A stretch of DNA of 64,000 nt from Polaribacter sp. BAL334. GTDB taxonomy: Bacteria > Bacteroidota > Bacteroidia > Flavobacteriales > Flavobacteriaceae. This document shows positions 10,432 through 22,041 of the stretch, one piece after another (positions within the stretch are counted from its first letter, which is position 1; every line of letters starts with the position of its first letter). The position numbers and the translations under genes are program-made. Below the pieces are notes generated by a model, which saw only the letters and a program-made list of their open reading frames with translations, was not told the DNA's origin and did no database searches. The DNA lies in assembly GCF_015767435.1 (NCBI RefSeq), contig NZ_JADWOV010000230.1, positions 62,001 to 126,000 of the forward strand, in the 5' to 3' direction.

Positions 10432-10980
10432 TTAATTTTCTATTTCAATTTTTGAGTTACTTTCTTTGAAAAGCGGCAAATAATCATCAACTTTAAAAGT
10501 ATTTCTATCAAAACGAGAAGTTCTATTTTTTGCTTCTTCTTGTCTTACAATACTCCTTGCAAATCGTCTAATTTCTGCTTTTGATGTTAAAATCAATCCT
10601 GGAACTGGAGTGCTTTTTCCTTCTGAATCTTTGGCAACCATTGTAAAATAAGAAGAATTACAATGTTTGGTTTCACCAGTTCTGATGTTTTCAGAATCTA
10701 CTCGCAAACCAATCACCATCGAAGTTCGGCCAGTATAATTTACTGAAGCTTTTAAAGTAACCAATTCTCCCACTTCAATAGGGTTTACAAAATCAACTTT
10801 ATTGACAGATGCTGTTACGCAATACTGGCCAGAATGTTTTGAAGCGCATGCAAAAGCGATTTGATCCATCAAATTTAAAATGTGACCTCCATGGATTTTA
10901 CCACTAAAATTGGAATGAGAAGGTAACATCAATTGAGTTATAAGCACTTGTGAATCTTTCACATATTTAAAATCACTCAT
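10432..10980 (-). CDS. Acyl-CoA thioesterase (YciA-type hotdog fold)
   Basis: This 182-residue hotdog protein has the signature FSGKIHGGHILNLMDQIAFACAS, in which the aspartate after NLM is the catalytic acid of YciA/ACOT-type thioesterases. VNPIEVGELVTLKASV and the GRTSMVIGLRV beta strand follow. It hydrolyses acyl-CoA to free acid and CoA; chain preference is not visible. A basic, non-conserved tail of about 40 residues follows the hotdog domain. The start overlaps by 8 bp the upstream gene at 10973-11356, so both belong to one operon with trmD. Confidence 0.9.
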   Translation of the reverse strand: MSDFKYVKDSQVLITQLMLPSHSNFSGKIHGGHILNLMDQIAFACASKHSGQYCVTASVNKVDFVNPIEVGELVTLKASVNYTGRTSMVIGLRVDSENIRTGETKHCNSSYFTMVAKDSEGKSTPVPGLILTSKAEIRRFARSIVRQEEAKNRTSRFDRNTFKVDDYLPLFKESNSKIEIEN

Positions 10981-11356
10981 TTTTGATGGTTTTTGTTCTA
11001 AAATGTGGTGAATCTTCTTGAGTTACTTTTGTGATGAAATATTTAGTATCTCCCAACCAAAACAAGGTTTTGTAGCGTTCAATATAATCCACTTTCACAT
11101 AATGTCCTTGAAAATTTTTGAGGTCTTCAATCACTTGTTTGTTTTTCTTTTCAACTGAAAATGAAAAAATTTGAGCCCCAGAAATCCCTTGACTGATTTC
11201 ACCTTCCCAAGTTTTTACTAAAACACCTTTTTTACTGATTTTAATCAATTCGCCAGAACGAACTCCTTCACTAAAAGTGGCAAAATAAATAAAGCTAAAG
11301 TATATAACCGCAATTAAAACAACTGCCGAAATGAATATAGTTAGAAATTTTTTCAT
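10973..11356 (-). CDS. Conserved small membrane-anchored protein, unknown function
   Basis: This 127-residue protein has a hydrophobic anchor at residues 4-27. A compact beta-rich domain with the phrase FSEGVRSGELIKISKKG and a C-terminal GHYVKVDYIERYK follows. I recognise it as a family common in Flavobacteriaceae that databases sometimes call 6-phosphogluconate dehydrogenase. It has none of that enzyme's domains, so the name should not be used. First gene of a minus-strand operon with the thioesterase and trmD. Confidence 0.75.
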   Translation of the reverse strand: MKKFLTIFISAVVLIAVIYFSFIYFATFSEGVRSGELIKISKKGVLVKTWEGEISQGISGAQIFSFSVEKKNKQVIEDLKNFQGHYVKVDYIERYKTLFWLGDTKYFITKVTQEDSPHFRTKTIKNE

Positions 11357-11418: not shown

Positions 11419-12315
11419 TTATAATTTATTTTTCCTTGTGTGTAAAATAAATGTTGCATTGAAACCAAAATGTAAATTTCCATCTTTGAAATTAAAATTA
11501 TTGGTTGTCCTTGTTATAAAAGTATCTTCTGCAAAATTTCTAGCATTTGTCAAATGAAATTGTAACATCAAATCACTAACTTCCCAATTGATTCCAATCA
11601 TAAAAGCATTGTAGGTTTCTATTGATTTTAAAGGGTTTGCAACATAGAAATATTCAGAAACAACAGCAGTATGTTCATTGATTTTATGCCTTCCTCCAAA
11701 TGCAATTGCAAATTGATTTTTTGATTCATTCAAAAAACGATTAGATTGAGAATGTAAAAATGTTGGACTTACTTGTAGAGACAGATTTTGATTTATTTTT
11801 CTTGCAATTAAAAGCTGACTTACAAAAGCATATCCATCAGAAGTTGTTGGTTGATAAATAGTTGGACTTGTTATTTTTTTGTGAGAAATTGTTTGCAAAA
11901 GCGTGAGGCTTATAAAACCTGTTTTTGAGTTTTGTTGCTGTTTTAGCAGTTTGTATTTTAGATATCCATCACTTATTTTGTCATAATTGGTGTACCCAGC
12001 ACCAAAAGTGAAATCATCAGTAATAGAGTATTCTAAGCCATAGCGAGTGCTTACTACATCTGCCAAAAAACGCTGTCCTTTAAAATCGGGAATGTCCCAA
12101 TATCTGTTGTATAGAGAAATTTGCAAAGCGCCTTTTTTACGAGTTTCAATAGAATGCCCAAGACCTAATCTAGTTGTTTTGAAAGTTGCAATTTCTTCTA
12201 TTTTTTCATCTGAAAGTTCAGCATCTAGTTTTTTTAGCAAATCTTGAGCTTGCAATTTGAAATTTGCAAAAAAACAAAAACATATAATGAAAATGATGAG
12301 ACGATTATTCTTCAT
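11419..12315 (-). CDS. DUF5777-type beta-barrel protein (left copy)
   Basis: This 298-residue protein has a cleavable signal peptide (about residues 1-23, ending LQAQ) and a repeated alternation of polar and hydrophobic strands typical of an outer-membrane beta barrel. N-terminal landmarks are FKTTRLGLGHSIETRKKGAL and FTFGAGYTNYDKISDGYLKY. The second copy at 15999-16868 shares this layout (FKGTRILNGHSVKNRKDKEL; LGIGRSSYEKTYDSFIKY). It is the last gene of the left cassette: it overlaps the YceI gene by 11 bp, which itself overlaps the OB-fold gene by 8 bp. No enzymatic motif is visible; the role is unknown, perhaps a pore or docking protein for the periplasmic partners. Confidence 0.8.
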   Translation of the reverse strand: MKNNRLIIFIICFCFFANFKLQAQDLLKKLDAELSDEKIEEIATFKTTRLGLGHSIETRKKGALQISLYNRYWDIPDFKGQRFLADVVSTRYGLEYSITDDFTFGAGYTNYDKISDGYLKYKLLKQQQNSKTGFISLTLLQTISHKKITSPTIYQPTTSDGYAFVSQLLIARKINQNLSLQVSPTFLHSQSNRFLNESKNQFAIAFGGRHKINEHTAVVSEYFYVANPLKSIETYNAFMIGINWEVSDLMLQFHLTNARNFAEDTFITRTTNNFNFKDGNLHFGFNATFILHTRKNKL

Positions 12316-12853
12316 AAGGTTGGAATTGAAATCTAAATTTTACTGAAATTGTTTTGGCAATATTACTCGCTAAAATTGGTGGAATTTTAATTTGAAAATC
12401 ACTTACAGCAACAATAAATTCCCCAGTCATAGAGTAAGAATCTTTACTTTTTTCAATGTTAGTTTTAATATCAATTTGTTTTGAAATTCCATGAATTGTT
12501 AATTTTCCACGAATAATTTTAGTTTGTAATTGGTTATTATTTTTTTCGAAATCGAGTATTTTTCCTTCAAAAGTGGCTTTTGGGTACAAATCAGATTCTA
12601 TATAACTTTCATTAAAATGTTCATACATCAAATCTTTTTTAAACACAAAAGCTCTCATTAACATGTTTACCGCAATTTCGTTTGTTTCTGTGTCAAAAAT
12701 GCTTAAAACTTGATTGTTATTTGCTTCAATATTTTCTACTGAAGTGTATGAGAAAAATGATATTTGTCCTTGTCTGGCAATAAATTGTTTTGAATTTTTT
12801 TGCGGACTTGATAAGGTAAATATCAATAAAAAGAAGGGTATTATTTTATTCAT
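12305..12853 (-). CDS. YceI-family periplasmic protein (left copy)
   Basis: This 182-residue protein has a hydrophobic export signal (about residues 1-17) and a YceI-like lipocalin-type barrel. Landmarks are GQISFFSYTSVENIEANNNQ, YPKATFEGKI, GKLTIHGISKQI and the closing strand KTISVKFRFQF. Characterised YceI relatives bind polyisoprenoids such as quinone-type lipids in the barrel; that activity here is inference. It is the middle gene of the left cassette, with overlaps on both sides. The right copy (15448-15996) has the same length and matching motifs. Confidence 0.88.
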   Translation of the reverse strand: MNKIIPFFLLIFTLSSPQKNSKQFIARQGQISFFSYTSVENIEANNNQVLSIFDTETNEIAVNMLMRAFVFKKDLMYEHFNESYIESDLYPKATFEGKILDFEKNNNQLQTKIIRGKLTIHGISKQIDIKTNIEKSKDSYSMTGEFIVAVSDFQIKIPPILASNIAKTISVKFRFQFQPYEE

Positions 12854-13283
12854 TGGCGGAAAAATCTATAAAGCAATCTAGTAAAATGACATCTTTCAAA
12901 AAACCTTTACAAATACCTTTCACAGTTATTTTTTGATTTATGGATAGTTTTTTAATTTTTTCTTTTTGATTCGGATTCATATCGCAAATTACACCAAAAG
13001 TTTTATTATTGCTTGTCAAAATAACAGTAATTCTTTGGTTTATGAATGAAATTTCTTTAATTTTTCCTGTAACTTCAATGATTTTCCCTTCATATAATGC
13101 ATTTGACTTTTTTTCATCCAATGTAAATGAATTTACTAATTCATCAGAATTCAGCGTTGCAATTGCTGTTTGATTTGCTATACTTTTTTCTGAATTTTTA
13201 AAAATAGTAAATTTCACTACAAATCCTACAAAAAGGAAAAGTAGCAATAAGAAAACTGTTAATTTGTTTATTTTTAGTTTCAT
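12846..13283 (-). CDS. Membrane-anchored OB-fold (tRNA_anti-like) protein (left copy)
   Basis: This 145-residue protein has an N-terminal anchor (about residues 8-27) and an OB-fold of the tRNA_anti-like type (GKIIEVTGKIKEISF; ITVKGICKGFLKDVILLDC). The anchor predicts an extracytoplasmic OB domain, so binding of nucleic acid is unlikely. Three cysteines at residues 100, 125 and 137 are all conserved in the right-hand copy at exactly the same residue numbers, which suggests metal, haem or disulfide chemistry. It is the first gene of the left cassette, divergent from the LytTR regulator with 128 bp between the two start codons. Confidence 0.75.
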   Translation of the reverse strand: MKLKINKLTVFLLLLFLFVGFVVKFTIFKNSEKSIANQTAIATLNSDELVNSFTLDEKKSNALYEGKIIEVTGKIKEISFINQRITVILTSNNKTFGVICDMNPNQKEKIKKLSINQKITVKGICKGFLKDVILLDCFIDFSANE

Positions 13284-13411
13284 TTGACATCAAATAAAGC
13301 TAAAAGTATTCAATTAAAGAAAAAAATATTGTTAAGGAGGAAAAAATAATCCTAAATAGCCCTAATTTTACCGCAAAATAATGGCAGATAATTTCAAACC
13401 AAACTTCTAAA

Positions 13412-14497
13412 ATGAAAAAAGATAGATTGTATTTTTTGACATTTATTGCAATAACAATTGTTTTTCTGTTTGTGGCAATTATTGCCTCTCAATACTTTAT
13501 TAAATTAAGTGCCAATCAATTGATTGAAGCGCAAGTAGAATCTAGTAAAAGAGAAGCTAATGAAATTGCAAAAATGCTTGATTTTCAATTAGAATCGGAA
13601 ATAAGTAAAGAAAAAATTATAGAAAATTTACAGCAAATTATAGATAAAACAGATAATAATTCTTGGTTTATTAGTGTATTTGATTGGGGAGGAAAAGAAG
13701 TTTGTAATCCAGATAAAACGAAGGTTGGTCAGCTTGTAAATTCAGATCAATCCTTATTATTATCACTCAATGAAAAAAACAATTCTGATAATTTATATGA
13801 TTTATTGACGCATGCAAATATCAATGCAACTTCAGAAATTATTTACATTGTTCCATTGAAAAAAACGGATTTAATTGTTGCAGCAAATGTTCAAATTAAA
13901 AGCATCAACAATCAATTAAAAGCACTAAAAATCAATTTTCACTTGATTTTTTTAATTATGGGTTTGACAGTTATTGTTCTGTCTTTCTTTTTAGTTAGAA
14001 TAATTGGAAGTGCTTATGAAAAGGAATTGGAACAACAAAATTCGAGTTTAACTACTGAAGTGGTGAATCTTTCAAAATTGAATTCAGATTTATTTTCATA
14101 CAAAGAAAAAGTTGCGATAAGTGACATAAAAAATACTTCTGATGATTCTCAAGACAAAGAAAAAAAGCGACTCTTGACATATATCAGAAATGAATTAGTT
14201 CCTATTTTGATTGATGATATTGCGTATGTATATACTGAAAATTCCATCACTTTTGTAGTCAGTTTTGATGGAAATAAATCCATTTCTAATGCAAGTTTGG
14301 ATGAAGTTTTCACGCAGCTTAATCCTTCATTGTTTTTTAGAGCCAACAGACAGTTTATCATCAGTATTTCTGCAATTGATAAAATTCTAAAATATGGAAA
14401 TAGCCAATTGAAAATTGTGTTGCACACAAAAACTACTGAAGATATTATCATCAGTAAAAACAAAGCTGCTGAGTTTAAACAATGGTTAAATATGTAA
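13412..14497 (+). CDS. Membrane-bound Cache-like sensor / LytTR DNA-binding regulator
   Basis: The 361-residue protein has two membrane helices (about residues 8-30 and 173-196). Between them is an extracytoplasmic sensor of about 140 residues whose segment WFISVFDWGGKEVCNPDKTK (84-104) resembles small Cache ligand-binding domains. After the second helix come a short coiled coil (200-230) and a LytTR DNA-binding domain (252-359; FFRANRQFIISISAIDKI is the family signature). There is no receiver and no kinase domain, so signal and DNA binding are in one protein. It stands between two mirrored OB/YceI/DUF5777 cassettes and is the obvious candidate regulator for both. The ligand is unknown. Confidence 0.85.
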   Translation: MKKDRLYFLTFIAITIVFLFVAIIASQYFIKLSANQLIEAQVESSKREANEIAKMLDFQLESEISKEKIIENLQQIIDKTDNNSWFISVFDWGGKEVCNPDKTKVGQLVNSDQSLLLSLNEKNNSDNLYDLLTHANINATSEIIYIVPLKKTDLIVAANVQIKSINNQLKALKINFHLIFLIMGLTVIVLSFFLVRIIGSAYEKELEQQNSSLTTEVVNLSKLNSDLFSYKEKVAISDIKNTSDDSQDKEKKRLLTYIRNELVPILIDDIAYVYTENSITFVVSFDGNKSISNASLDEVFTQLNPSLFFRANRQFIISISAIDKILKYGNSQLKIVLHTKTTEDIIISKNKAAEFKQWLNM

Positions 14498-14536
14498 TTT
14501 GAAACAAATTATTTCAACTTGCTAAAATTACTTTTA

Positions 14537-14583
14537 ACAGTTTATTTTCCCTTTCACAATCTTTTCTTTCCCTTTCAGTTTAG
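14537..14583 (+). promoter_or_regulatory. Candidate LytTR operator upstream of the right cassette
   Basis: Two perfect copies of TTTCCCTTTCA start at 14546 and 14567, a period of exactly 21 bp. Copies of CAGTTTA at 14538 and 14576 flank them, each part of a 9-mer fitting the published LytTR half-site consensus WMMGTTNRK (14537-14545 and 14575-14583). LytTR regulators such as AgrA bind direct repeats about 21-22 bp apart. The consensus is loose and the genome AT-rich, so this remains a proposal. Confidence 0.4.
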
Positions 14584-14646
14584 TTAAATTGTATATTAAA
14601 TATAATACTTGCATTTTTGTATTAAAATCCAAAACAAACCTCAACC

Positions 14647-15003
14647 ATGAAAAATGTATTTCAATCACTAAAAATTTTTCTTTTGATTTTTTTAATTGTA
14701 TCAACTCATAGTTCCTGTTTAAACAATGTAGAAGAGGTAATTGAAGAAAATCCAATAGAAGATTTTTGCAAAACAAGAAGCTTTTCTCTGCATGTAAAAA
14801 CAATCATTGATAACAATTGTATTCAATGTCATGGACAAGGAGGCAATTCACCAAATTTGACAACTTACAATGGAGTAAGCAGTAATGCAAACTCAATAAA
14901 ATCAGAAGTGGTAAGCAGAAGAATGCCACAAGGAAGTTCATTAACAAATGAAGAAATCCAAGCGATTAGTTGTTGGGTTGATGAAGGAGCTTTAAATAAT
15001 TAA
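14647..15003 (+). CDS. Small c-type cytochrome lipoprotein
   Basis: This 118-residue protein has a lipoprotein-type signal (hydrophobic 9-20, Cys24 after HSS). It has a single haem c motif C58-I-Q-C61-H62 and a likely axial methionine M93 in RRMPQG. The C-terminal Trp/Glu-Gly ending (ISCWVDEGALNN) resembles small Bacteroidota cytochrome domains fused to or near surface enzymes. It should face the periplasm or cell surface and carry electrons. First gene of the right cassette, 4 bp before the OB-fold gene; the left cassette has no such gene. Confidence 0.82.
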   Translation: MKNVFQSLKIFLLIFLIVSTHSSCLNNVEEVIEENPIEDFCKTRSFSLHVKTIIDNNCIQCHGQGGNSPNLTTYNGVSSNANSIKSEVVSRRMPQGSSLTNEEIQAISCWVDEGALNN

Positions 15004-15007
15004 GAAA

Positions 15008-15436
15008 ATGAAACTACTATCAAAAAAAGGAATTCTATTCATTTTCCTAATTATAGCAATAATTGGAGGAGTTATTGGCTTCAAAATGGCGAACAAATCA
15101 CATCTTGATATTTCTTCTTCAGCACCCAAAATTACCATTCAAGCAACACAACTTATTGATGAATTTTTAATAAATGAAACTACTGCAAATGCCAATTATC
15201 TTGATAAATTAATTGCAGTCAATGGAACTATTTCATCCATAAAAACAGAGGATGAGAATGGCATAATTTCACTAAAAACAGCCGATGATTTTGGAAGCGT
15301 ATTGTGTCATTTATCCAAAGAAGCAACTCAAATTTTACCACAAATAAAAATCGGACAAAACATTCAGATAAAAGGAATTTGCACAGGATTCTTAATGGAT
15401 GTAATACTTGTTAGATGTGAAATAATCAATCAATAA
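15008..15436 (+). CDS. Membrane-anchored OB-fold (tRNA_anti-like) protein (right copy)
   Basis: This 142-residue protein has one N-terminal helix (about residues 8-26) and an OB-fold with the conserved end IKGICTGFLMDVILVRCEI. It is the counterpart of the protein at 12846-13283. Cys100, Cys125 and Cys137 fall at identical positions in both although much of the rest has diverged, which points to selection on the cysteines. It is flanked closely by the cytochrome gene (4-bp gap) and the YceI gene (11-bp gap). Function unknown. Confidence 0.76.
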   Translation: MKLLSKKGILFIFLIIAIIGGVIGFKMANKSHLDISSSAPKITIQATQLIDEFLINETTANANYLDKLIAVNGTISSIKTEDENGIISLKTADDFGSVLCHLSKEATQILPQIKIGQNIQIKGICTGFLMDVILVRCEIINQ

Positions 15437-15447
15437 AGCAACCAATT

Positions 15448-15996
15448 ATGAACTATTTTTTATCAACACTCTTTTTATTTTTCTGTTTGCAATTGGTTCA
15501 ATCGCAAGAACGATATCTTACAAAAAATGGAACAATTACTTTTTTTTCAAAAGCGCCAATAGAAAATATTGAGGCAAAAAACCAACAAGTTTTAAGCATT
15601 ATTGATACAAATAATGGATCAATGGCAATTTCAATTTTGATGAAATCTTTTTTGTTCGAAAAAGCGTTAATGCAAGAACATTTTAATGAAAATTATGTTG
15701 AATCGGACAAATTTCCGAAGGCAACTTTTAAAGGAACTATTTTAAATTTTTCAAACATTTCTAGTTCTCCATCAAAATTTCAAGTGAAAGGAACCATCAC
15801 AATTCACGGAGAATCAAAGGAGATAACAATTGAAGGTTTGTTTTCAAAAACAGCATCAGAAATTACTGCTATTGGCGATTTTACAATAAATCTTGACGAT
15901 TTTAAAGTGAAAATTCCTGCAGTAGTTGCCAAAAACATTGCCAAAAACATCAAAATAAGCTTTGACTTCAACCATCAACCATTTCAAAAACAATAA
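15448..15996 (+). CDS. YceI-family periplasmic protein (right copy)
   Basis: This 182-residue exported protein has a signal peptide of about 19 residues ending in QSQ. Landmarks shared with the left copy are FFSKAPIENIEAKNQQVLSI, FNENYVESDKFPKATFKG, ITIHGESKEI and IPAVVAKNIAKNIKISFDF. The equal length and block-by-block similarity mark the two as paralogues. A lipid- or quinone-binding barrel is expected from the family. The DUF5777 gene starts 2 bp after its stop. Confidence 0.88.
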   Translation: MNYFLSTLFLFFCLQLVQSQERYLTKNGTITFFSKAPIENIEAKNQQVLSIIDTNNGSMAISILMKSFLFEKALMQEHFNENYVESDKFPKATFKGTILNFSNISSSPSKFQVKGTITIHGESKEITIEGLFSKTASEITAIGDFTINLDDFKVKIPAVVAKNIAKNIKISFDFNHQPFQKQ

Positions 15997-15998
15997 AT

Positions 15999-16868
15999 AT
16001 GAAATCATTTGTATTCATTTTACTCACTTTTTTTTCAATAACATTTAGTTATTCTCAGGAAGATTTATTAGATATTTTAGAAGAGGAAACTACAAAGAAA
16101 GTGCCTTCTGAAATTGAAAATTCCATTTTTAAAGGGACACGAATTTTAAACGGGCATTCTGTTAAAAACAGAAAAGACAAAGAATTAGAATTTATTATTT
16201 CGCACAGATTTGGTAGAATAAATTTAGGATTTGATGAATTGTTTGGCTTAGATCAATCAAACATTCGTTTTGCTTTTGAATATGGATTGAATGACAATAT
16301 CACCCTTGGAATTGGAAGAAGCAGTTACGAAAAAACGTATGATTCCTTTATAAAATATTCATTATTTCATCAAAAATCAGGCGAAAATTCATTTCCCTTA
16401 GCCATTTCATTATTTGGTAGTGTTGCCGTAAAAACTTTAAAGGATTATCCTCCAACAGATAAAAGATCTTTTGCAGAAAGTCTTTCTTATGTGGGGCAAG
16501 TTTTAATTGCCAGAAAAATAAATTCAGGGTTATCATTACAATTAACACCTACCTATATTCACAGAAATACAGTGAAAATCGCAGAAGATCCTCATGATAT
16601 TTTTGCCTTGGGTTTTGGTAGTAGAGTAAAATTATCAAATAGAGTTTCTTTCAATTCTGAATATTTCCATTCTTTTAATGAATCTGTTTCTATCAATGCA
16701 AGAAATTCATTGGCAATAGGATTTGATATTGAAACTGGAGGACATGTATTTCAATTGATATTGTCAAATTCCATTACTATGATTGAAAAAAGTTTTATAG
16801 CTGAAACGACTGGAAACTTTTTTGGAGGAGATATTCACTTTGGATTTAATATTTCGAGAACTTTTTAA
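15999..16868 (+). CDS. DUF5777-type beta-barrel protein (right copy)
   Basis: This 289-residue protein has a signal peptide (about residues 1-19, SITFSYSQ) and a beta-strand-rich body ending in an aromatic residue (ISRTF), typical of outer-membrane barrels. It is paralogous to 11419-12315 (shared pattern RILNGHSVKNR / RLGLGHSIETR; VGQVLIARKINSGLSLQLTP / VSQLLIARKINQNLSLQVSP). It follows the YceI gene by 2 bp. No catalytic motif is seen. Confidence 0.8.
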   Translation: MKSFVFILLTFFSITFSYSQEDLLDILEEETTKKVPSEIENSIFKGTRILNGHSVKNRKDKELEFIISHRFGRINLGFDELFGLDQSNIRFAFEYGLNDNITLGIGRSSYEKTYDSFIKYSLFHQKSGENSFPLAISLFGSVAVKTLKDYPPTDKRSFAESLSYVGQVLIARKINSGLSLQLTPTYIHRNTVKIAEDPHDIFALGFGSRVKLSNRVSFNSEYFHSFNESVSINARNSLAIGFDIETGGHVFQLILSNSITMIEKSFIAETTGNFFGGDIHFGFNISRTF

Positions 16869-16939
16869 TAACAATTTCAACTGAATTTTTTCACTTTTAA
16901 AATAGGATTCTTCGGCTTTACATAGAAATAATTGTCAGG

Positions 16940-16959
16940 AAAGTTAATTTTAAGTTGAT
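16940..16959 (+). promoter_or_regulatory. Tandem LytTR-like half-sites upstream of the CxxCH T9SS gene
   Basis: AAAGTTAAT (16940-16948) and TAAGTTGAT (16951-16959) both fit WMMGTTNRK and lie 11 bp apart, 58 bp before the start codon at 17017. The expected chance frequency of the 9-mer is roughly one per kilobase per strand, so the pair is suggestive only. Confidence 0.25.
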
Positions 16960-17016
16960 TTGTAATCATTTAAAATAAAAGTATTATCATCAAACAAACC
17001 AATAAAAACTAAAACC

Positions 17017-17802
17017 ATGAAAAAAAATTACATCTTTAAATCTATTTTATTATTAATTCCGATTTCTGCAATTTTCCTACTTTCTTTCTCTTCAGGAAAT
17101 GGAAGTGCGCTTTCTGGTTCTCCAGGTGATGGAGGAAATAATTGTACACAATGTCATTCAGGAACTGCAAATAATAGTAATATTACAATTACTACAAACA
17201 TTCCAGTTACGGGATATCATTTCAATACAGAATATGATATTACGATCACAAATTCTGGTGGAGGAACTAGAAATGGTTTTCAAGTAACTGCAGAAAAAGA
17301 CAATAATAATTCAAAAGTGGGAACATTTCGTTCTGTAAATTCGGCCACTCAAACTGCTGATAATAATAAAAGAATCATCCATACAAGTTCAGGAAATGGA
17401 CAAAACTCTTGGTCTTTTAAATGGACTTCACCTTCTTCAGAACAAGGAAAAATTACATTTTATGGGGCTTCAGTTTCAGGAAATGGTAATTTTTCTAATT
17501 CAGGAGATCAAGTTTTTTTAGGAAAATCGAATTCAGTACCTTCCTTAAGTGTTGATGCGTTATCTAAATTGGAATTTGAAATGTTTCCAAATCCATCATC
17601 TAACAATTTATTTATTCGTTTTTCAGATAATGAAGAAAATGCAATGGTAACATTTTATGATTATTCAGGAAAAAAAGTTTACAATCAAGAAGTAACAAGA
17701 AGTAATACTAAAATAAATGTATCTAACTTATCTTCAGGTGTTTATTTTGTAAAAGTTATTTCTGATGGAAAAACAGGTTTGAAAAAATTCATCAAACAAT
17801 AA
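17017..17802 (+). CDS. Exported CxxCH protein with choice-of-anchor V domain and T9SS sorting tail
   Basis: This 261-residue protein has a signal peptide (about 1-27), then a Gly-rich GSPGDGGNNCTQCHSG with a haem c or metal motif C43-T-Q-C46-H47. A reelin-like beta-sandwich domain (about 50-175) and a C-terminal T9SS type A sorting domain (about 184-261: FEMFPNPSSNNLFIRF, YDYSGKKVYNQEV, LSSGVYFVKV, ending KFIKQ) follow. It should reach the cell surface through the type IX system. It lies 148 bp after the right cassette in the same direction, and its CxxCH motif pairs with the cytochrome at the head of that cassette. Terminator follows at 17828. Confidence 0.85.
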   Translation: MKKNYIFKSILLLIPISAIFLLSFSSGNGSALSGSPGDGGNNCTQCHSGTANNSNITITTNIPVTGYHFNTEYDITITNSGGGTRNGFQVTAEKDNNNSKVGTFRSVNSATQTADNNKRIIHTSSGNGQNSWSFKWTSPSSEQGKITFYGASVSGNGNFSNSGDQVFLGKSNSVPSLSVDALSKLEFEMFPNPSSNNLFIRFSDNEENAMVTFYDYSGKKVYNQEVTRSNTKINVSNLSSGVYFVKVISDGKTGLKKFIKQ

Positions 17803-19153: not shown

Positions 19154-19885
19154 CTAATTTTGATGAATTATTTTTCCAGAACCTACAGATTTTACATCTT
19201 TTTCAGCAGGATTTCCACTGTAGTAGATATTTCCTGAACCTACAACTTTAGCTTTTATTTTTTTAGTTACGGTAGTTTTAATGTTTCCAGAACCCGCAAT
19301 TGTAGCATTTGTTACTTCAGCATTTAAATCAAAAGCATTCACATTTCCAGAGCCAGCAACAGAACATTCAAACTCATTTGTTTTTCCAGACAATTCAATA
19401 TTTCCTGAACCACCAATATTTACGCTCATTGAACTTGTTTCAATTGTTAATTTGATATTTCCAGAACCTCCTAATGAAGCTGAAAAATCGGCTGTTTTGA
19501 TGACATTTTCATTAGTAATACTACCTGAACCACCTAAAGAAACTTTGCTAATTTTTGTAAAAGGAACAGTAATTGTCATTTTTTTTGTAGTACTAATATT
19601 AGCATTTCTTTTATATTTGATTTGTAGATTCCCATTTTTTACTTCTATTTCAATATATGGAATGATGTTTTCTTCACCCTCAATTTTGATGCTTCCTTCT
19701 TTGCCTTTTACCAAAACCACATCAAATGATCCTCCAGCACTAATTTCATCATATTCAGAAGTTGTTCTTGTTTCGGTAATGATATTTCCATTTCCTTTCA
19801 CTTTTTCTCCATTTCCCCAGTTTTGAGAGTTTATTGCAAATGAGGATAGAAAAAGGACGATTGATAATTTTAAATTTTTATTCAT
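19154..19885 (-). CDS. Head GIN domain (DUF2807) exported protein
   Basis: This 243-residue protein has a signal peptide (about 1-20). It contains a series of short repeats around GSGN or GGSGNI (positions about 115-240), spaced about 18-20 residues, which predict a right-handed beta helix, the DUF2807 fold. Such proteins are thought to sit at the envelope surface; no enzyme activity is known to me. It is the last gene of the minus-strand operon that begins with the ECF sigma factor at 22041. Confidence 0.88.
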   Translation of the reverse strand: MNKNLKLSIVLFLSSFAINSQNWGNGEKVKGNGNIITETRTTSEYDEISAGGSFDVVLVKGKEGSIKIEGEENIIPYIEIEVKNGNLQIKYKRNANISTTKKMTITVPFTKISKVSLGGSGSITNENVIKTADFSASLGGSGNIKLTIETSSMSVNIGGSGNIELSGKTNEFECSVAGSGNVNAFDLNAEVTNATIAGSGNIKTTVTKKIKAKVVGSGNIYYSGNPAEKDVKSVGSGKIIHQN

Positions 19886-19911
19886 AATTTTTAGTTGTTT
19901 GATTACTATTT

Positions 19912-20991
19912 TTAATTTTCATTGATTGACACACTTCCATATTGAGATTTTACAACCAATTTTGAATTTGAATTTCCTTTTCCAAATTTCCCTTCGTAAT
20001 ATTTTTTGGTTGATTTTTCAATTTTTGTTTGGAATGCAATTTTATCATTATTTTCTTTAAAACCTGTATATTCTAAATCTAGAATAATGTTAAAATTTGC
20101 TTCAGGCGAAACTGCTATTTTTATGGTTGTAAATTCTCCATTTATGAGTACAGACTCAAAATCTTTTTTTAAATCTTTCACAAAAATTGAGCCATAATCT
20201 GTTTCAATTTGTAGTTTTTTACTGATAGAACCAAAACGCAATCCAGTATAATCAGAACTTCCAACTATCATTTCTGCATCTTCAATTTTTAAAGAACCAT
20301 AACCAGCATTGAAATTAATTTCTTTTACTTTATTGATTTCCAATGTGGTGTAATCAGAATTTGATTTTATTTTTTCTGAATTTTCTATCGATAATTTTGA
20401 ATAATCCAAATTTAAAATCCCATTTTTTACATAAGAAATACTTGATGATGAGCAATAATCCAAATTGATGGTATTACTTTCTCCCCACAATTCGCCCAAA
20501 ATAATTTTACCATATTCGCATTTTATATTTGCATTTCCTGACAAAGCGTCCAAGAAAATACTTCCATATTCGTTTTTTACATCAATAGAATTGGTTTTTG
20601 GCATTTTCACAAAGTAATCAATTTTATAATTTAAATTGTCACTTTTTTTCCACCAATTCCAGTTTTTCTCACCACTTTCTAAAATTGTTTTTGCAATAAC
20701 CATATCAGCACTTGCTTTAAATTCAACTTGAATATTTTCAATTCTATCTTCAACTCTTCCTAAATCATTGCCTTTAACTGTAATTACAACTTCAATAACC
20801 ACTTTATTTTCGTTCCAAGAAGTTATGGTTACGTTTCCGTATTTATTGAGTAACTGTAGATTTGCATTTTTAGAAACAGTAAATTCTCTGTTGATTTTTT
20901 TAATTTTTTCGTGTTTTACATCATCAATTGTTGCAAAAAGTATTGATGGAATTAGCAGTAATAAAAGAGTAATTTTATACATAAATTTCAT
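19912..20991 (-). CDS. Exported beta-helix protein (DUF4097-like)
   Basis: This 359-residue protein has a signal peptide (about 1-19) and many repeated strands of the type YGSI/YGKI/DYTTL (for example KNEYGSIFLDALSGNANIKC), consistent with a DUF4097-type beta solenoid. It is related in architecture to the DUF2807 protein 26 bp downstream. The start overlaps the anti-sigma-like gene by 17 bp, so translation is probably coupled. Likely an envelope protein under control of the ECF sigma factor; function unknown. Confidence 0.75.
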   Translation of the reverse strand: MKFMYKITLLLLLIPSILFATIDDVKHEKIKKINREFTVSKNANLQLLNKYGNVTITSWNENKVVIEVVITVKGNDLGRVEDRIENIQVEFKASADMVIAKTILESGEKNWNWWKKSDNLNYKIDYFVKMPKTNSIDVKNEYGSIFLDALSGNANIKCEYGKIILGELWGESNTINLDYCSSSSISYVKNGILNLDYSKLSIENSEKIKSNSDYTTLEINKVKEINFNAGYGSLKIEDAEMIVGSSDYTGLRFGSISKKLQIETDYGSIFVKDLKKDFESVLINGEFTTIKIAVSPEANFNIILDLEYTGFKENNDKIAFQTKIEKSTKKYYEGKFGKGNSNSKLVVKSQYGSVSINEN

Positions 20992-21490
20992 TTTTAAATT
21001 TTTTAATTTGATTTATTTTTTTCAACATATTTTCTAAAATTTCCAATCGTAATTGGTAGTTTTCAATCATAAAATTGATGATTTTTTGTTGGTTTCCTTC
21101 TTTGTTTAATTCTTTTAACAACTGTTGATATTCTTTTTCTAAACCTTCTAATTGCATCAAGGTTTGTTTGATAATTAGTTCATTTTCAGGAGTTTTGTTT
21201 TTTTCTAATAGGTTGGTTTTTTGATGAATTGTGGAAACAAAATACCCTTGAACTTCTTCCATTTTTGGTGAAATATCAGCCAAATCAATAGTAGATTTTT
21301 GTTGCATTTTTCCAAGTCCAAAACCAATCATTACTAATATTGATGCTGCTACTGAAAGCCATTTCCAAGAAATTGCATCCTTTTTTTTTGAGGATTTTAG
21401 CTTGCTTTCAAATCGCTCAAAATGGCCACTTTCAGGTTCTTGAAAATCAAAATCAGTTTCAGAAAAATAGTTTTCAAAATTGTTTTTCAT
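20975..21490 (-). CDS. Probable anti-sigma factor
   Basis: This 171-residue protein has a soluble N-terminal part of about 40 residues (FDFQEPESGHFERFESKL), one membrane helix (about residues 43-60, WLSVAASILVMIGFGLG) and a helical, glutamate-rich extracytoplasmic half. Its position 5 bp after the ECF sigma gene and its one-helix topology are those of anti-sigma factors. The zinc-binding HxxxCxxC of the ZAS class is absent, so the identification rests on context and topology. Confidence 0.65.
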   Translation of the reverse strand: MKNNFENYFSETDFDFQEPESGHFERFESKLKSSKKKDAISWKWLSVAASILVMIGFGLGKMQQKSTIDLADISPKMEEVQGYFVSTIHQKTNLLEKNKTPENELIIKQTLMQLEGLEKEYQQLLKELNKEGNQQKIINFMIENYQLRLEILENMLKKINQIKKFKNEIYV

Positions 21491-21495
21491 AATAG

Positions 21496-22041
21496 TTATA
21501 TCATATCAGCGAGTAATACTTGCTTTAGTTTGTTTTTTGCTCTCAAAATGGTAGTTCTTACATTTTCATTCGTATAATTCAAAATTTGTTGAATCTCTTC
21601 ATAATCAAATCCTTCAATCAAGTATAACGTAAGAATTATTCTATAATTTTCCTTCAAGCTCTGTATTGTATTTAAAATTATTTTAGGGTCTAATTTGTTG
21701 GTTTCAAAGGACTCTTCTTCAATTTCATCATTAGGAATAATTTCCATTTTTGCCATTTCATACCGATTATTTTTTCTCAATTGATTGATGCTTTTATTCA
21801 CTACGATTCTTTTCAACCAAGCTCCAAAAGTAACTTCACCTTTGTATGAATCCATTTTTGTAAAAGCTGTTAAAAAAGCCTCTTGCATGATATCTTCAGC
21901 TTCAAAACTATCTTTCAAAATTCGAATTGCAGTATTATACATTGCCTTATAATAGGCTTTGTACAGTTGCAATTGAGCATTTTTATCCGACTTTTTACAG
22001 TGCTCAATCAAATGGATGATATGTGGTTGGTTAGCTTCCAA
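21496..22041 (-). CDS. ECF RNA polymerase sigma factor
   Basis: This 181-residue sigma-70 family protein of the ECF group has region 2 (SFEAEDIMQEAFLTAFTKMD; FGAWLKRIVVNKSINQLRK) and region 4 with its helix-turn-helix (IEGFDYEEIQQILNYTNENV, RTTILRAKNKLKQVL). It directs RNA polymerase to stress- or envelope-specific promoters and is normally held by the anti-sigma encoded next to it. The divergent gap to lon holds two near-identical repeats (22070-22137) that might be its own target. Signal unknown. Confidence 0.93.
   Translation of the reverse strand: MEANQPHIIHLIEHCKKSDKNAQLQLYKAYYKAMYNTAIRILKDSFEAEDIMQEAFLTAFTKMDSYKGEVTFGAWLKRIVVNKSINQLRKNNRYEMAKMEIIPNDEIEEESFETNKLDPKIILNTIQSLKENYRIILTLYLIEGFDYEEIQQILNYTNENVRTTILRAKNKLKQVLLADMI

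Follow-up and report, generated by a model that had tools for sequence, protein, structure and literature searches.

Paired OB-fold/YceI/DUF5777 modules diverging from a LytTR regulator gene in Polaribacter sp. BAL334: a conserved locus with a probable role in cell-envelope electron transfer

The locus described here lies in a 64,000-nucleotide stretch of the genome of Polaribacter sp. BAL334 (contig NZ_JADWOV010000230.1, positions 62,001 to 126,000 of the forward strand), which we call the window, and consists of two modules, each encoding an OB-fold protein, a YceI protein and a DUF5777 protein, that point away from a single gene for a membrane-bound LytTR regulator. This arrangement had been recognised in an initial annotation of the sequence, and both its gene positions and its protein families are borne out by the open reading frames (ORFs) read from the window and by scanning ten proteins of the locus against Pfam and NCBIfam. 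The genes are as follows.

11419-12315, minus strand: left-arm DUF5777 protein, a predicted outer-membrane beta-barrel of the arm-B type, placed in the left-type group in trees (PF19089, E 8e-65)
12305-12853, minus strand: left-arm YceI, a predicted lipocalin-like periplasmic protein (PF04264, E 1.1e-12)
12846-13283, minus strand: left-arm OB-fold protein (tRNA_anti-like), predicted to be membrane-anchored (PF12869, E 2.7e-27)
13412-14497, plus strand: LytTR regulator, a predicted membrane-bound one-component protein with a transmembrane segment, a Cache-like periplasmic region, a second transmembrane segment, a coiled coil and a LytTR domain (PF04397, E 2.9e-17)
14647-15003, plus strand: c-type cytochrome lipoprotein with one CxxCH motif and an acidic stretch after the lipobox Cys (PF13442/PF00034; PF13442 E 4.5e-06)
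15008-15436, plus strand: right-arm OB-fold protein, predicted to be membrane-anchored (PF12869, E 7.4e-28)
15448-15996, plus strand: right-arm YceI (PF04264, E 2.1e-17)
15999-16868, plus strand: right-arm DUF5777 protein, a predicted 12-stranded outer-membrane barrel (PF19089, E 6.3e-95)
17017-17802, plus strand: Reeler / choice-of-anchor V protein with one CxxCH motif, sorted by the type IX secretion system (T9SS), a possible regulon member (NF041895 E 1.4e-32, TIGR04183 E 4.1e-16, PF18962 E 1.4e-16)

As first annotated, the left-arm genes overlap (OB-fold with YceI by 8 bases, YceI with DUF5777 by 11 bases), while the right arm has a haem lipoprotein ahead of it and behind it a CxxCH protein with the C-terminal sorting domain of T9SS cargo (PF18962, TIGR04183). 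The three protein pairs are indeed recognisable paralogues, with identities between the arms of 30% for the OB-fold proteins (E 2e-17), 42% for YceI (5e-53) and 33% for DUF5777 (2e-49), and both DUF5777 proteins exceed the Pfam gathering score (219 and 317.5 bits vs 23.1). Within the genome of this strain the two DUF5777 matches and the two PF12869 matches all lie at this locus, YceI has seven matches, and the nearest named relatives of the locus belong to Polaribacter. One earlier claim has to be amended: all products except the regulator had been predicted to be exported, whereas the OB-fold proteins look membrane-anchored with a periplasmic domain, judging from an N-terminal hydrophobic stretch, and not like cleaved exports; a lipobox-like motif is found in 3 of 117 such proteins. 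The locus probably represents a LytTR-regulated pair of cell-envelope electron-transfer modules. That the arms and the regulator form a regulatory unit is well supported, and the redox role is moderately supported.

The cassette is real and conserved. We compared 80 genome loci, those with the closest relatives of the right-arm barrel, with 120 regions surrounding DUF5777 matches in a sample of the whole phylum, a subset of all DUF5777 matches in that sample, where the family is present in 115 of 296 Bacteroidota genomes; three of the phylum regions (L136, L166 and L195; L and G numbers are our handles for loci and genomes) lost their barrel in ORF calling and were left out, giving 117 units. 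Among the nearest loci, the three genes stand side by side in 68 of 80, the order OB-YceI-DUF5777 being found in 73 units and the reverse order in 11. The block has a LytTR gene within 5 kb in 39 of the 80, and these loci include 12 named genera (Polaribacter, Aquimarina, Leptobacterium, Lutibacter, Maribacter, Arenibacter, Allomuricauda, Sinomicrobium, Tenacibaculum, Eudoraea, Gelidibacter and Urechidicola), so that the recurrence in many genera by which the initial annotation proposed to recognise a functional unit is found. In the phylum sample the block occurs in 9 of 120 regions, with LytTR in 2 of them, and is rarer because the OB-fold gene is often missing. The three-gene unit first described holds among the nearest loci but not across the phylum, where the wider core is a carrier followed by YceI and DUF5777: among the 117 units YceI is present in 83, a cytochrome in 80 and the OB-fold protein in a minority of 28.

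It is the carrier that points to a redox function. A one-electron carrier, namely a c-type cytochrome, a Rieske protein or a cupredoxin, is present in 92 of the 117 phylum-sample units, and the units lacking a cytochrome include nine with a Rieske protein and three with a plastocyanin-like cupredoxin, all 12 of them above the Pfam cut-off (including L114 and L186). Counting ORFs of 90 amino acids or more, c-type cytochromes account for 89 of 549 inside units vs 15 of 1003 outside. Three units combine a cytochrome with a 'cupredoxin' label, which T9SS tails can also trigger; L120 alone of these was checked by Pfam, and its partner is a T9SS cupredoxin. The partners in L189 are a haem protein of the ethylbenzene dehydrogenase type (EB_dh) with 4Fe-4S and NrfD proteins, and those in L020 are a Haem_bd-cytochrome P460 fusion and a Lipoprotein_15 repeat protein. 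The occurrence of three unrelated folds, carrying haem, iron-sulphur or copper, at one place of the operon is our main argument for electron transfer, and it strengthens the redox side of the redox or lipid-binding role that the initial annotation had named as likely. The cytochrome itself appears to be a lipoprotein in most loci, with a lipobox-like motif in 162 of the 204 proteins labelled as this cytochrome and a mean of 2.93 D/E residues at positions +2 to +12 from the lipobox Cys over these 162; a PDB sequence search with it returned nothing useful.

The regulator has its LytTR domain at residues 261-359 and no Response_reg domain at E <= 0.1 in Pfam; its transmembrane segments and coiled coil are read from the sequence and the model. 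The AlphaFold model (predicted local distance difference test, pLDDT, 77.8; predicted template modelling score, pTM, 0.46) shows long helices around a mixed domain and matches LytTR folds well, among them 3d6w (TM-score 0.91 by target length), ComE and AgrA. Its periplasmic region has weak Foldseek matches to chemoreceptor ligand-binding (Cache-type) domains (E 0.008 to about 0.1) and no Pfam hit at E <= 0.1. A comparable protein is CoxC, which likewise fuses a membrane sensor region to a C-terminal LytTR domain and uses a direct-repeat operator at two-helical-turn spacing, but has a seven-transmembrane MHYT sensor and three repeats and acts as a repressor (PMC11347149). In contrast, the window regulator has two predicted transmembrane segments flanking the Cache-like periplasmic region, and two repeats. 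The repeats in the window are listed below.

14544-14577, plus strand: predicted operator, a direct repeat of 13-bp half-sites with a period of 21 bp, followed after 69 bases by the start codon of the cytochrome gene (score 34.6, the best in the 64 kb window)
16887-16920, plus strand: weak operator-like repeat before the Reeler gene (score 18.9)
13313-13345, minus strand: weak operator-like repeat before the left arm, not significant (score 7.0, p = 0.095 vs 200 shuffles; coordinates worked out by hand)

The repeat unit upstream of the cytochrome gene is TTTCCCTTTCA. Canonical LytTR sites are described as paired 9-bp direct repeats 10-13 bp apart (PMC11347149), and the half-site period of 20-21 bp seen here agrees with such direct repeats. 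A position weight matrix was derived from 26 regions that are linked to LytTR and lie in neither Polaribacter nor Aquimarina; one of them (L115) is without a site since the wrong side of its regulator was taken. The matrix was then applied to 16 regions before right arms and 15 before left arms. As the seed half-site was read from the window, its site does not count as an independent case, while the other promoters do. Fourteen of the 16 right-arm regions beat all 200 shuffles, the two exceptions being L209, where there is no right arm, and L025, where the region was cut short and a site of 28.3 lies further on. In the left-arm regions, with the opposite orientation, p <= 0.01 was obtained in 11 of 15. 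At a threshold of 24 bits, the LytTR loci (0.78 Mb) gave 63 hits, with overlapping registers counted, vs 3 in 2.26 Mb without LytTR, two of these three being one site in L211 and the third, in L232, the window's own site. At 20 bits and within 300 bp upstream, a site with a period of 20-21 bp was found for 38 of the 73 units that belong to LytTR loci and were not used in training, vs 2 of 153 without LytTR, these two being L211 and L045. The first of them belongs to G088, whose LytTR gene lies on another contig beside an arm-B module (L209), a sign that control may act in trans. Neither LytTR (0/4, in records of 1.7-2.9 Mb of unstated completeness) nor a site accompanies the right arm in four Polaribacter loci where it is the only arm. 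Repeats before Reeler genes, counted only where phmmer confirmed the gene (the automatic label also caught T9SS tails), score 29.8 in L005, 29.9 in L013 and 23.3 in L016, beside 18.9 in the window, and 3.2 in L191, which is without LytTR. This shared operator-like repeat links the arms to the LytTR gene. In the strain's own genome, the window site is the sole mismatch-free match to the period-21 pattern, which was taken from it; beyond this site the search is at chance level, with 13 hits vs 17 for a reversed-pattern control of the same period, and a two-mismatch match seems, by eye, to lie inside a coding region. Elsewhere, two sites, L028:5691-5724 (minus strand, 34.1) and L209:10401-10434 (plus strand, 26.0), are followed by genes outside the cassette (285 and 940 amino acids), which are possible regulon members.

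The two arms also differ in kind. In trees of DUF5777, OB-fold and YceI proteins, the left-arm genes of 17 two-arm loci group together, apart from the right-arm genes (OB support 88), and the right-arm genes group with single-arm cassettes. In the DUF5777 tree the left group, which also includes L209, stands on a long stem of 1.88 changes per column, and in a larger DUF5777 tree 24 rows from further genomes join this left-type, or arm-B, group with support 100. The left arm is thus, on the evidence of these trees, an old, separate paralogue. Arm A occurs in two lineages, cytochrome-OB-YceI-DUF5777, sometimes led by a Lipoprotein_15 gene, and cytochrome-YceI-OB-DUF5777, and a Lipoprotein_15-like gene leads arm B in 11 of the 24 added rows; the arm B of the window is without one. 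Recent or local duplication of the arms was rejected on the separation of the left-arm genes in all three trees, and decay of the left arm was rejected because, across seven pairs, the nonsynonymous rate (dN) of each gene in either arm stays below its synonymous rate (dS), dS being near saturation in many. The mirrored double cassette of the initial annotation is present here and is one arrangement among several: arms are mirrored in Polaribacter and Aquimarina loci and in L007, L018 and L246, and elsewhere there are tandem arms or a single arm. In G369 (contigs C43 and C48; L246 and L247) the LytTR gene and the arm-B barrel are each present twice, with about 21 kb between the members of the second pair.

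Arm B is tied closely to the regulator. Among the fetched loci 44 of 261 DUF5777 proteins have arm-B scores, all in LytTR loci, vs 0 of 156 in loci without LytTR, although many of the LytTR loci had been chosen for LytTR; the 36 added regions were selected for holding it, and five of these had already served for training. A count free of this bias comes from 249 family genomes, where a LytTR orthologue is found in 37, DUF5777 in 124 and an arm-B DUF5777 in 27, the arm-B type being told by a clear break in the scores (294.8 bits or more, the next being 261.7). All 27 arm-B genomes have LytTR (Fisher p 3e-28), and DUF5777 is present in 36 of 37 LytTR genomes vs 88 of 212 others (p 1e-11), p-values that overstate independence because the genomes share ancestry. 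The distance from arm B to LytTR is 33 to 7737 bases (one pair per genome, 27 genomes). So strict a tie suggests that arm B may serve sensing. We tentatively propose, as a possibility that we consider doubtful, that the left arm is no second effector but a copy devoted to sensing on behalf of the LytTR regulator: a redox module that, after duplication, would report the redox state of the envelope or present a ligand to the Cache-like domain, while YceI-DUF5777, with the OB-fold protein, would be a phylum-wide envelope electron shuttle taking haem, iron-sulphur or copper carriers. Such a sensing copy would explain why arm B is found only with LytTR, nearby, and with no cytochrome in its unit.

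Different regulators stand ahead of the cassette in other lineages. The cassette follows genes for sigma factors of the extracytoplasmic function type in a cluster of 20 loci, some with FecR (sigma domains were confirmed for L054), and a large protein that follows forms a cluster of 17 loci, with no Pfam hit for the L054 copy. By gene lengths, eight loci (L142, L144-L147, L150, L153 and L179) have the cassette behind sigma-like, FecR and TonB-receptor genes, the FecR and receptor domains having been checked for L144 only. The module is therefore placed under several kinds of envelope signalling.

How the preferred reading, a regulated pair of electron-transfer modules, could work is suggested by analogy with known YceI lipocalins. 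An isoprenoid or ubiquinone-8 is bound in most structures of YceI lipocalins, and one such lipocalin of Burkholderia protects, together with a cytochrome b561, against lipid peroxidation (PMC9113575). The OB-fold protein would be anchored in the inner membrane, face the periplasm and dock the lipophilic molecule of YceI; YceI would carry this isoprenoid- or quinone-type redox molecule between the membranes; and the DUF5777 barrel would receive it. In the right arm, the one-haem lipoprotein and the secreted CxxCH protein would take or give electrons at the outer membrane or the cell surface. The LytTR protein would sense a small periplasmic molecule through its Cache-like region and would bind the 20-21 bp direct repeat, switching the arms. 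The modules may serve lipid protection, electron export or iron reduction. For Riemerella under iron limitation, a YceI gene is listed among the regulated genes (value 1.16) and a cytochrome C gene is stated to go down (PMC5429918); we found no link from these genes to the cassette.

The AlphaFold model of the right-arm DUF5777 (from 48 sequences; mean pLDDT 86.9) has 12 strands, and on a second look its best fold matches are KdgM (Z 18.1, root mean square deviation (rmsd) 2.0, 166 aligned), FapF (Z 18.1, rmsd 3.3, 209) and NanC (Z 17.7, rmsd 2.9, 186), at identities of 5-14%; a profile search of PDB sequences matched none of the three and gave nothing useful. The 12-stranded KdgM/NanC porins and FapF share the fold predicted for DUF5777, but their operon partners differ. 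The right-arm YceI has one PDB sequence match at E <= 0.01, a weak one to 5ixg (YceI, E 0.0078). The OB-fold proteins keep three Cys columns in 107, 99 and 93 of 117, and a PDB sequence search with one gave nothing useful.

Several observations weigh against a LytTR-regulated pair of electron-transfer modules. As to regulation, ten LytTR-positive family genomes are without arm B, and one LytTR-positive genome, G475 (88% complete), is without DUF5777. The repeat before the window's own left arm is not significant, nor is that of L003 (p 0.225), and those of L010 (0.04) and L014 (0.035) are weak. At 20 bits, no site was detected for 35 of the 73 units of LytTR loci, a group that includes three loci with other LytTR proteins (L067, L157 and L215); conversely, L045 has a site (20.5) without LytTR. 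As to electron transfer, 25 of the 117 phylum-sample units have no carrier under a strict same-strand definition, and the left arm lacks a cytochrome gene. The best fold matches of the barrel, oligosaccharide porins and FapF, would fit uptake equally. A 12-stranded barrel is too narrow to enclose a cytochrome, and the route through the outer membrane is therefore unexplained.

Among the alternatives, an envelope antioxidant system, in which the carrier lipoprotein would re-reduce peroxidised lipid or quinone radicals captured by YceI, is unlikely but deserves the most attention. It follows the logic proposed for bcnA-lcoA of B. cenocepacia, where a YceI-family lipocalin (PF04264, as in both arms) sits beside its redox partner in one operon and acts in the envelope; that partner is a cytochrome b561, whereas here it is a c-type cytochrome and in relatives a Rieske protein or cupredoxin (PMC9113575). 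The window locus adds to the Burkholderia pair a 12-stranded barrel, a LytTR regulator and, in part of the relatives, an OB-fold protein, and for an antioxidant the barrel and the secreted CxxCH protein are not obviously needed. We take several of the named genera with related loci to be aerobic marine bacteria, which would suit an antioxidant, but by record names the cassette is also found in metagenome-assembled genomes of Bacteroidales/Bacteroidia from fen and lake sediment (L058, L062 and L081). Cytochrome b561 is absent from the ten locus proteins scanned, unlinked copies not having been searched, and from the 25 commonest families listed per set (185 neighbour proteins); the regulators among these listed families are sigma factors, FecR and Crp-type proteins, no search having been aimed at oxidative-stress regulators.

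We also regard as improbable, if slightly more so, that the locus serves surface electron export or reductive uptake, with ferric iron complexes or other acceptors outside the cell taking electrons from the quinone pool. The acidic stretch after the lipobox Cys of the cytochrome lipoproteins resembles surface-export signals, CxxCH and cupredoxin proteins are sorted by the T9SS, and in L144 and loci that resemble it the cassette stands behind genes of the sigma-like, FecR and TonB-receptor kinds. However, MtrCAB-type conduits, which likewise have a cytochrome gene beside that of an outer-membrane barrel, consist of a multihaem cytochrome in a very large barrel, and such multihaem conduits are unlike the cytochrome with one CxxCH and the barrel with 12 strands found in the window. 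Still less probable is a nutrient porin, with DUF5777 importing a small acidic or lipidic substrate that YceI and the OB-fold protein receive, and the redox proteins incidental or acting on the substrate. The fold matches to KdgM, NanC and FapF and the charged residues that are invariant in the barrel strands would suit a porin, but neither a glycoside hydrolase nor SusD is among the 25 commonest neighbour families listed per set, and carriers of three unrelated folds replace one another beside YceI-DUF5777. That an unrelated LytTR regulator lies beside the arms by chance is scarcely credible and was rejected: LytTR is present in 36 of the 124 DUF5777-holding family genomes and absent from most, but it lies within 7.7 kb in every arm-B genome, the operator contrast separates units with and without LytTR, and co-occurrence holds across loci and family genomes.

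As far as our literature searches reach, the system is uncharacterised, as had been suspected. The word DUF5777 appears in no paper of the open literature library searched (5.39 million), and no description of a YceI/cytochrome/DUF5777 cassette was found there among the matches listed, which were judged partly by title. The swapping of cytochrome, Rieske and cupredoxin partners gives the DUF5777 family a functional hypothesis, and the predicted operator offers a direct experimental handle. If a regulated pair of electron-transfer modules is the right reading, a one-component sensor in the membrane would govern an envelope electron route in marine flavobacteria, and carrying redox-active lipids through the periplasm would be a general function of YceI lipocalins.

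Some neighbouring genes were also observed. A thioesterase-like gene lies behind the cassette in a cluster of 14 loci (for example L005:10959-11381, 4HBT_2; 10 of 92 neighbours). An ankyrin-repeat gene of about 174 amino acids, assigned by Pfam for L126, is part of the cassette operon in nine loci (L126, L137, L141, L149, L152, L154, L155, L156 and L179), in several of which the adjoining T9SS protein looks DOMON-like by eye. In L116 (7788-8966), YceI-DUF5777 is followed by a 392-amino-acid membrane protein, matched to no family, which we take to resemble a PepSY-type reductase and which may hint at iron reduction. In the window, a sigma-70-like gene and then three genes, two of them auto-adhesin-like by eye, lie beside the locus at 19154-22041 (minus strand), and a 127-amino-acid membrane protein with no Pfam hit adjoins the left arm (10973-11356, minus strand), with homologues near cassettes in a few loci.

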